A stretch of 35,707 nt of DNA, taken from Giesbergeria sp. (GTDB lineage Bacteria; Pseudomonadota; Gammaproteobacteria; Burkholderiales; Burkholderiaceae_C). Location of the stretch: NCBI GenBank assembly GCA_023150295.1, contig JAKLLE010000037.1:1-35707 (forward strand). Direction: 5' to 3'. The notes beneath the pieces are model-generated. The model was not told the origin of the DNA and made no database searches. It was given only the letters and a program-made list of their open reading frames with translations. Both the position numbers and the translations under genes were made by a program. How positions within the stretch are numbered: position 1 is the first letter of the stretch; each line of letters opens with the position of its first letter. Below are positions 17,011-18,369 of the stretch, one piece after another.

Positions 17011-18141
17011 TTACACCTTGGCACGATGGCGCCGGGCCAGCACGGCCTGGGACAGGTCGTCCAGCGCGTGGAGCGAGTCGTCCCAGCCCAGGCAGGCATC
17101 GGTGATGCTCTTGCCGTATTCCAGTGCACAGGACTGATCCTTGCCCGGCGTGAACTTTTGCGCACCTGCCACCAGGTGGCTTTCGATCATGACACCGAAC
17201 ACACTGTGCGAACCGGAGGCCATCTGTGCGGCAATGTCGCGCGCCACATCGCGCTGCTTTTCGTGCTGCTTGCTGCTGTTGGCATGGCTGCAGTCCACCA
17301 TCAGCGTGGGCAGGAGCTTGGCGGCTTCCAGCTCCTTGCAGGCAGCGGCCACGCTGGCAGCGTCGTAGTTGGGGGTCTTGCCGCCGCGCAGGATGACGTG
17401 GCAGTCCTTGTTGCCCTTGGTGTTGACGATGGCCACCTGGCCGTTCTTGTGCACCGACAGGAAATGGTGGCCCCGGCTGGCCGACTGGATGGCGTCGGTG
17501 GCGATACGGATGTTGCCGTCCGTGCCGTTCTTGAAGCCGATCGGCGCCGACAGGCCCGAGGCCAGTTCGCGGTGCACCTGGCTCTCGGTGGTGCGCGCAC
17601 CGATGGCGCCCCAGGCGATCAGGTCGCCGATGTACTGGGGCGAGATTACATCGAGGAACTCGCTGCCTGCCGGCACGCCCAGGCGGTTGATCTCGATCAG
17701 CAACTGGCGTGCGATGCGCAGGCCCTCGTCGATGCGGTAGCTCTCATCCAGGTAGGGGTCATTGATGAGACCCTTCCAGCCCACCGTGGTGCGCGGCTTC
17801 TCGAAATACACACGCATCACGATCTCCAGCGTGTCCTGGTACTGCGCACGCACATCCTTCAGGCGGCGGGCGTAGTCCAGCGCGGCGGCCGGGTCGTGGA
17901 TGGAGCAGGGGCCGATCACCACCAGCAGGCGGTCGTCCTTGCCGTGCATGATCTGGTGGATGGTCTTGCGCGTCTGGGTGATCAGCTGCTCCACCGCCGT
18001 GCCACGGATGGGGAAGAAGCGGATCAAGTGTTCGGGAGGGGGGAGCACGGTGATGTCCTTGATGCGTTCGTCGTCGGTTTCACTGGTTTTCTCGACGCTT
18101 TGGTACCAGGCATCACTGGCGCTCAGGGCTTTGGGGCTCAT
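17011..18141 (-). CDS. aroG: 3-deoxy-7-phosphoheptulonate (DAHP) synthase, class I
   Basis: A 376-residue class I (AroF/G/H type) DAHP synthase. It condenses phosphoenolpyruvate and erythrose 4-phosphate, the committed step to aromatic amino acids. Conserved blocks are present: VVIGPCSIHDP, RVYFEKPRTTVGWKGLIND, GFKNGTDGN and VDCSHANSSK. It is about 25 residues longer than the E. coli enzymes, mainly at the N-terminus. Which aromatic amino acid feeds back on the enzyme cannot be read from sequence. Expression is almost certainly controlled by the leader-peptide attenuator in the 170 bp upstream, whose codons include Phe, Tyr and Trp. The symbol aroG is used for the class; an aroF or aroH name is possible. 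Confidence 0.95.
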   Translation of the reverse strand: MSPKALSASDAWYQSVEKTSETDDERIKDITVLPPPEHLIRFFPIRGTAVEQLITQTRKTIHQIMHGKDDRLLVVIGPCSIHDPAAALDYARRLKDVRAQYQDTLEIVMRVYFEKPRTTVGWKGLINDPYLDESYRIDEGLRIARQLLIEINRLGVPAGSEFLDVISPQYIGDLIAWGAIGARTTESQVHRELASGLSAPIGFKNGTDGNIRIATDAIQSASRGHHFLSVHKNGQVAIVNTKGNKDCHVILRGGKTPNYDAASVAAACKELEAAKLLPTLMVDCSHANSSKQHEKQRDVARDIAAQMASGSHSVFGVMIESHLVAGAQKFTPGKDQSCALEYGKSITDACLGWDDSLHALDDLSQAVLARRHRAKV

Positions 18142-18180
18142 GGGGTGCTTTCTGTGAGAAGTGGAAAAAGAAAAACGCTC

Positions 18181-18218
18181 AAAACAAAAAACCGCCGGGC
18201 TTTGCAGCTTCGGCGGTT
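18181..18218 (-). terminator. attenuator terminator in the aroG leader
   Basis: On the minus strand AACCGCCG (18218-18211) pairs with CGGCGGTT (18197-18190) across a 13-nt loop and runs into TTTTTTGTTTT. This is a full intrinsic terminator placed between the leader peptide and the aroG start, about 40 bp before the start codon. It would end transcription before aroG unless disrupted. Confidence 0.9.
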
Positions 18219-18254
18219 GGGTGGGAAGTGTCTGGGTGCTCGCGCGCTTGCCTC

Positions 18255-18311
18255 TCATCCGCCTGGGACCGAGAACCAAAACCAAAAGTAAAAAGCGAAA
18301 CGCGATGGCAT
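18255..18311 (-). CDS. aroG leader peptide (aromatic attenuation peptide)
   Basis: An 18-residue ORF, MPSRFAFYFWFWFSVPGG, ending in TGA. Residues 5-13 hold eight aromatic residues (five Phe, one Tyr, two Trp) interrupted by a single Ala. This is the hallmark of attenuation leader peptides such as PheL, but with codons for all three aromatic amino acids. It ends 114 bp before aroG and 37 bp before the terminator stem. No strong Shine-Dalgarno is seen, and a TACATT box sits just upstream, so the transcript may start very near the ATG. Confidence 0.88.
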   Translation of the reverse strand: MPSRFAFYFWFWFSVPGG

Positions 18312-18369
18312 AGGGGCTGAATGTAGCATATTTGCATTGCACGGCCGCATCGCGACCGCGCCTGGAATA

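Follow-up and report, generated by a model that had tools for sequence, protein, structure and literature searches.

A conserved Phe/Tyr/Trp leader peptide and a probable transcription attenuator upstream of aroG in Giesbergeria and related Burkholderiales

In a Giesbergeria genome and in its relatives, the DAHP synthase gene aroG is preceded by a short open reading frame (ORF) crowded with phenylalanine, tyrosine and tryptophan codons, and by an intrinsic terminator whose 5' arm can pair with the end of that ORF instead. Judging from sequence comparison and computed folds, this arrangement is very probably a ribosome-mediated transcription attenuator of aroG, and the leader with its RNA switch most likely turns the gene on when aromatic amino acids run short.

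Organisation of the aroG locus and start of the leader

The window (the whole stretch of DNA analysed, 35,707 nucleotides) carries on its minus strand, in this order, an extended -10 box, the leader ORF, a terminator hairpin with its U-run, and aroG. The features are as follows; counts out of 101 refer to the unique family loci described below.

18320..18328, minus strand: extended -10 element TGCTACATT, with 8 nt between the end of the box and the leader ATG
18255..18311, minus strand: leader ORF of 18 codons, MPSRFAFYFWFWFSVPGG followed by a stop (ATG at 18311, TGA ending at 18255)
18273..18299, minus strand: putative control codons 5-13, F A F Y F W F W F in the leader translation
18259..18263, minus strand: segment 2, GGCGG, predicted 5' strand of the antiterminator, found after the last aromatic codon in 99/101
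18252..18256, minus strand: GAGAG block just 3' of GGCGG, from the 38-sequence alignment A1
18211..18218, minus strand: segment 3, AACCGCCG, 5' arm of the terminator and alternative partner of segment 2, with CCGCC in 100/101
18190..18197, minus strand: segment 4, CGGCGGTT, 3' arm of the terminator, with GGCGG and then at least four T in 101/101
18186..18191, minus strand: U-run of the intrinsic terminator, read from the sequence
17011..18141, minus strand: aroG, DAHP synthase of 376 aa and presumed controlled gene (NCBIfam match; ATG at 18141, stop ending at 17011)

The initial annotation had described an 18-codon ORF with eight aromatic codons in nine positions, an intrinsic terminator between it and aroG, and a leader GGCGG able to pair with CCGCC in the 5' arm of the terminator; all three were found again on the minus strand (ORF at 18311-18255, hairpin and U-run at 18218-18186, GGCGG at 18263-18259 complementary to CCGCC at 18216-18212), and its coordinates and counts for leader, terminator and aroG were correct on re-checking. 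To that first reading the present analysis adds the apparent leaderless start of the leader and the existence of a second DAHP synthase gene without such a leader.

The aroG product matches the DAHP synthase model TIGR00034 at 534.9 bits (cut-off 173.2) and narrowly misses the stricter AroG model NF006723 (548.7, cut-off 568). A second DAHP synthase gene in this genome (L002, G000:C85:33136-34191) is 57% identical to aroG; an aromatic leader was not found in its upstream region, nor in five further upstream regions of the second DAHP synthase gene taken from the same family, f1 (L204, L206 and L216-L218). On the plus strand, a 421-codon open frame runs antisense to aroG (17026-18291) and is probably a mere by-product of codon bias.

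Conservation was assessed in a family set of 111 loci, made up of 30 loci from a search of 60 relatives (the window's own locus included, all of family f1), a scan of named genomes, and L002. The scan contributed its best 80 most similar loci, which biases the set towards near kin. The genera covered are Acidovorax, Giesbergeria, Polaromonas, Variovorax, Ramlibacter, Hydrogenophaga, Comamonas, Curvibacter and others; Acidovorax is placed in the Comamonadaceae (Burkholderiales), to which we take the remaining genera to belong as well. Leaving out the paralog L002 and two loci with only 31 nt upstream of aroG (L010 and L038) gave 108 informative loci, and removing seven exact duplicates gave 101 unique ones.

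The motif TGNTANANT lies 6-8 nt ahead of the first in-frame ATG (counting only those at least 4 nt past the box) in all 101 unique relatives, the distance from box end to ATG being 6 nt in 17, 7 nt in 50 and 8 nt in 34, and the box reads exactly TGCTACATT in 75 of them. An information profile of the region was aligned on the box pattern, and its high values there are partly built in; the unanchored count, taken from the unextended ATG, finds TGNTANANT at 6-8 nt in 97/101 leaders as against 12 of 20200 shuffled upstream regions. A consensus scan of the window's own region for a two-hexamer sigma-70 site did not find one. At the usual spacing from a -10 element, transcription would begin on the leader AUG or a few bases away from it. 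The short gap of 6-8 nt between box and ATG makes the leader transcript look leaderless, and such a start would leave the leader mRNA without a ribosome-binding site.

Aromatic codons and alternative pairing within the family

An aromatic leader is present upstream of aroG in all 108 informative loci of the family set, starting 161 to 293 nt before the gene (in L024 and L085 it lies 293 nt upstream, about 120 nt beyond the usual distance). The initial annotation had suggested aligning the upstream regions of aroG; in that alignment the aromatic codons proved conserved in close relatives, the opposite of a leader that drifts while its gene is kept. At least six aromatic codons in nine occur in 107 of the 108 leaders, the exception, L023, having five. 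Among 2000 first-order-shuffled upstream regions, drawn from 100 of the 111 upstream regions (four of these shorter than 450 nt), a short ORF with at least five in nine arose 26 times and one with at least six twice. Over the last four codon columns, pairwise comparison of the 101 unique leaders yields 6039 aromatic-to-aromatic, 1777 synonymous and 784 other differences, the pairs not being independent. Codons for all three aromatic amino acids occur together in 99/101 leaders (Trp is missing from L030 and L083). Of the aromatic residues Phe is the most frequent, with a mean of 4.3 per leader, followed by Tyr with 1.7 and Trp with 1.1; Trp stands mostly at two aligned positions (77/101 and 22/101).

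The spacing between the codons and the RNA segments is likewise conserved. From the last aromatic codon to GGCGG there are 12 nt in 60 leaders, 15 in 32, 14 in four, 11 in two and 18 in one. GGCGG stands in frame 0 in 93 of these 99 leaders and in frame 2 in six, where the peptide reads PAVER, PAVES, PAEER or PAAER; since the word is kept where the peptide differs, it is the RNA word rather than the amino acids that is conserved. In alignment A1 (38 sequences), three of the five columns of the neighbouring GAGAG block are invariant and two are conserved in at least 90%. The block may provide extra antiterminator pairing, or may be a Shine-Dalgarno-like element that holds the ribosome; its pairing partner is weak in the window's own sequence.

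The window's own hairpin (18218-18190) folds at -17.1 kcal/mol (z -3.31), which none of 200 shuffles equals, and a consensus terminator scan was uninformative, with one terminator-like site in the region and 0.5 on average in shuffled sequence. The antiterminator of the window is no more stable than its shuffles (z -0.59; 54/200 fold as well), a result that we count against the attenuator; as this single-sequence fold is not significant, we rely on comparison across relatives. Folding both alternative structures, as the initial annotation had advised, gave the terminator in the whole untranslated leader of 98/98 relatives, and the GGCGG:CCGCC helix in the stretch from GGCGG to the 5' arm of 98/98, the latter being expected once both words are present (L069 and L089, without GGCGG, and L078, with a 5' arm reading CCGTC, were left out).

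The effect of a stalled ribosome was modelled by giving it a footprint of 12 nt, counted from the first base of the codon in the A site. In these computed folds, the antiterminator excludes the terminator and is freed by a stall at the control codons: it forms in 97/98 relatives when the last aromatic codon occupies the A site and in 653 of 684 stalls over all aromatic codons, and is predicted in only 36/98 one codon further on, in 1/98 two codons on, and in 0/98 at the stop. Footprints of 9-15 nt shift this boundary by at most one codon, later for 9-10 nt and earlier for 14-15 nt; with the largest footprints (14-15 nt), GGCGG becomes free in only 36/98 when the ribosome stalls on that last aromatic codon, which also weighs against the attenuator. 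In leaders with a late stop codon, the terminating ribosome may sit partly past GGCGG, and masking there would therefore depend on timing.

Distribution and covariation beyond the family

The wider search used a sequence-only model (R1) built from 38 leaders and without aroG sequence; since R1 includes the terminator, finding a terminator in its matches is expected. It has one match in the window's own genome and matches 41 of 60 genomes, comprising 34/36 genomes of f1 and 7/24 others; in both missed genomes of f1 (G011 and G016) aroG lies at a contig end. Four relatives hold five weak second matches (E 9e-4 to 8e-3). Across the order, R1 matched 106 of 399 genomes, and across the class 9 of 276, three of which belong to f1; of the remaining class-level matches, those in G444, G580, G675 (f61) and G676 (f66) have a leader and DAHP synthase, and two do not. 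Loci L253 and L254 have neither a leader nor the DAHP synthase motif.

Ninety-five regions (94 outside f1 and L317, a contig end of f1) were parsed, 82 successfully and 13 not. Leader and terminator were thus recovered in 82 of the 94 regions outside f1, and the DAHP synthase motif in 82/82; the 82 leaders come from 13 further families of the order and from f61 and f66. Among the 12 unparsed regions inspected, nine have the DAHP synthase motif, which an aromatic leader (at least four aromatic codons in nine) accompanies in six and not in the other three (L294, L307 and L312); in L314, L315 and L316 the motif was not found. Because 24 of the 82 parsed regions had been chosen beforehand as upstream regions of DAHP synthase genes, the fair figure is that for the 72 loci outside f1 found only through R1: the motif is present in 67 of them (58 parsed with leader and terminator, nine unparsed), and the five without it are the weakest matches (E 4.6e-4 to 7.9e-4).

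The leader is far from universal, and many other DAHP synthase genes in the order lack it. Starting from the genes, the 85 distinct regions upstream of DAHP synthase outside f1, with paralogs counted, hold an ORF with at least five aromatic codons in nine in 25 cases, one of which (L184) lacks the terminator words; the 60 regions without a leader we again count against the attenuator. The 1.2-Mb genome G216, listed as 100% complete, keeps leader and terminator upstream of DAHP synthase (L292). In two families outside the order, L249, L251 and L252 have the leader arrangement before DAHP synthase, with T/A/T at the covarying site considered next.

Beyond the family GGCGG also changes its reading frame. 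Covariation was sought at the base beside the five-base core. Outside f1, the bases in the leader, the 5' arm and the 3' arm read T/A/T in 35/75, C/G/C in 10/75 and otherwise in 30/75 (T/A/T also occurs within the family set, in L049). The association of leader T or C with arm A or G has a Fisher p of 4e-6, kinship ignored. The terminator arms pair at this base in 74/82 outside f1. Leader and 5' arm are unpaired there in 25/75 outside f1, a point against the attenuator, and in 16/98 of the family set, the window's own sequence (A against G) included.

Amino-acid content is looser outside the family. Among the 82 leaders of other families, 34 contain all three aromatics, 44 Phe and Tyr, three only Phe, and one Phe and Trp; Trp, missing from 47 of the 82, is kept in the family set and variable elsewhere.

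Proposed mechanism, alternative readings and known systems

We propose that transcription starts at or a few bases from the leader AUG, and that a first ribosome would load on the leaderless mRNA before RNA polymerase has left the leader. If charged Phe, Tyr and Trp tRNA is plentiful, the ribosome would reach the stop codon and cover GGCGG, and the CCGCC/GGCGG terminator would form ahead of aroG. Were a Phe, Tyr or Trp codon left undecoded, the ribosome would stall at or before the last aromatic codon; the free GGCGG would then pair with CCGCC, the terminator would be blocked and aroG would be transcribed. The attenuator postulated in the initial annotation gains support because the aromatic run, the GGCGG/CCGCC/GGCGG triad and the spacing are all conserved, and from three-way covariation outside the family.

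One alternative is that the hairpin simply ends a transcript coming from upstream, or acts as a constitutive brake, and that the aromatic ORF is incidental to a T-rich sequence; aromatic codons are T-rich, and a terminator by itself would reduce aroG expression. We give this account almost no credence: the codon differences are predominantly aromatic-to-aromatic (over non-independent pairs), the distances from box to ATG and from last aromatic codon to GGCGG are conserved, and GGCGG is conserved both in the leader and in the arm. It is also very improbable that the main role of the leader transcript or peptide is in trans, like that of rnTrpL and peTrpL of Sinorhizobium meliloti, with attenuation secondary. 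In favour of this, a terminated leaderless transcript, such as the one predicted here (about 125 nt for a start at the AUG and an end in the U-run), is reported as the source of both products (PMC7298713); against it, the ends of the peptide vary, and conservation falls on the aromatic block and on the words that pair in the RNA.

Which amino acids the attenuator reads is a separate matter. From its codons, the window's own leader likely senses all three. An attenuator sensing mainly Phe (with Tyr), in which Trp codons are tolerated aromatic spacers, would accord with the high share of Phe, with the presence of Trp in only 35 of the 82 parsed leaders outside the family, and with the reported response of the Corynebacterium glutamicum aroR leader to Phe alone (PMC11802643); we think it unlikely, though deserving of some weight, as Trp occurs in nearly all family-set leaders, mostly at two aligned positions, exceeding loose drift, and as modelled stalls at nearly all aromatic codons give the antiterminator. 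Returning to a leader that senses all three, we advance tentatively, expecting it to fail slightly more readily than to hold, a broader reading: that this is an old attenuator of the entry enzyme (in parts of at least 14 families of the order and in two families outside it); that one leaderless peptide polls all three end products; that lineages adjust it by exchanging Phe, Tyr and Trp codons for one another within a fixed RNA frame; and that leaderless initiation belongs to the design, since it would couple the first ribosome to RNA polymerase with no need of a ribosome-binding site.

In Escherichia coli, the DAHP synthase genes are controlled by TyrR and TrpR. No match to TrpR (PF01371) was found in the window's own genome; the TyrR-type HTH_50 domain (PF18024) has three weak hits there, the best at 28.8 bits with a cut-off of 27, and a TyrR-like regulator may be present. 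The hit over the cut-off (L255, G000:C1:21-143) lies near a contig end. About 650 nt upstream of trpE contain no ORF with more than three aromatic codons in nine, and 400 nt upstream of pheA contain no short ORF with an aromatic run. In the region upstream of trpE (L132) there are two short frames, each with two nearby Trp codons (WGW and WPW). With no TrpR match and no aromatic-run ORF before trpE or pheA, the aroG leader RNA may be a main sensor.

DAHP synthase controls the flow into the synthesis of every aromatic amino acid, and the locus offers a system in which one leader may read three of them, a natural series of codon sets for asking what weight a stall at each codon carries, and a case bearing on whether leaderless starts serve attenuation. 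It also points to a short ORF and a regulatory RNA that stand uncurated in many genomes: Rfam has no match in the window at gathering score, and at E up to 5 the leader region gives only two unrelated families (E 1.3 and 4.7). A literature search, in which most subscription papers were outside reach, found no paper evidently about an aroG attenuator in Burkholderiales.

In mechanism, the proposed attenuator resembles E. coli pheL-pheA and trpL-trpE, which likewise combine control codons, alternative antiterminator and terminator, and a terminator before the structural gene; these differ in reading a single amino acid each and in serving branch operons rather than the entry enzyme. The E. coli pheL and trpL leaders are translated from a ribosome-binding site. 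Single leaders with codons for several end products are found in E. coli thrL and ilvL, which differ in belonging to the Thr/Ile and branched-chain pathways and not to the aromatic one. A leaderless attenuator has reportedly been described for ilvBNC of C. glutamicum. For trpL of S. meliloti, an attenuator transcript with its 5' end at the leader ATG is reported (PMC7298713); that leader differs in being a Trp leader before trpE(G) in an alphaproteobacterium, and its 5' end is reported, whereas the one here is inferred.

The closest counterpart in target is C. glutamicum aroR, for which the primary paper is Neshat et al. 2014. As reported, aroR is a leader peptide with Phe and Tyr codons before aroF, a DAHP synthase gene, at which stalling raises transcription (PMC11802643, PMC4046766), and its Phe-Tyr-Phe run reportedly responds to Phe and not to Tyr (PMC11802643). 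The likeness, drawn from published descriptions, is an aromatic leader peptide before a DAHP synthase gene; aroR differs in coming from an actinobacterium, in having no Trp named and in responding to Phe only. A table of 2005, drawn from Merino's website, places putative attenuators immediately upstream of DAHP synthase genes, predicted for aroAI-alpha_Y > tyrA in Vibrio and aroAI-beta > tyrA in Thermus (PMC1173090); these entries differ in being predictions only, and the passages concerned give no leader peptide or control codons. A betaproteobacterial entry, for Bordetella parapertussis, is the gyrA-serC-pheA-tyrA cluster and not aroG (PMC1173090). Leader-peptide attenuation, attenuators of DAHP synthase genes (in C. 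glutamicum, and predicted in Vibrio and Thermus) and leaderless attenuator transcripts are each already known separately; what appears to be new, within the literature search as scoped above, is their combination in a conserved, apparently leaderless Phe/Tyr/Trp leader on aroG, in the family and beyond it.
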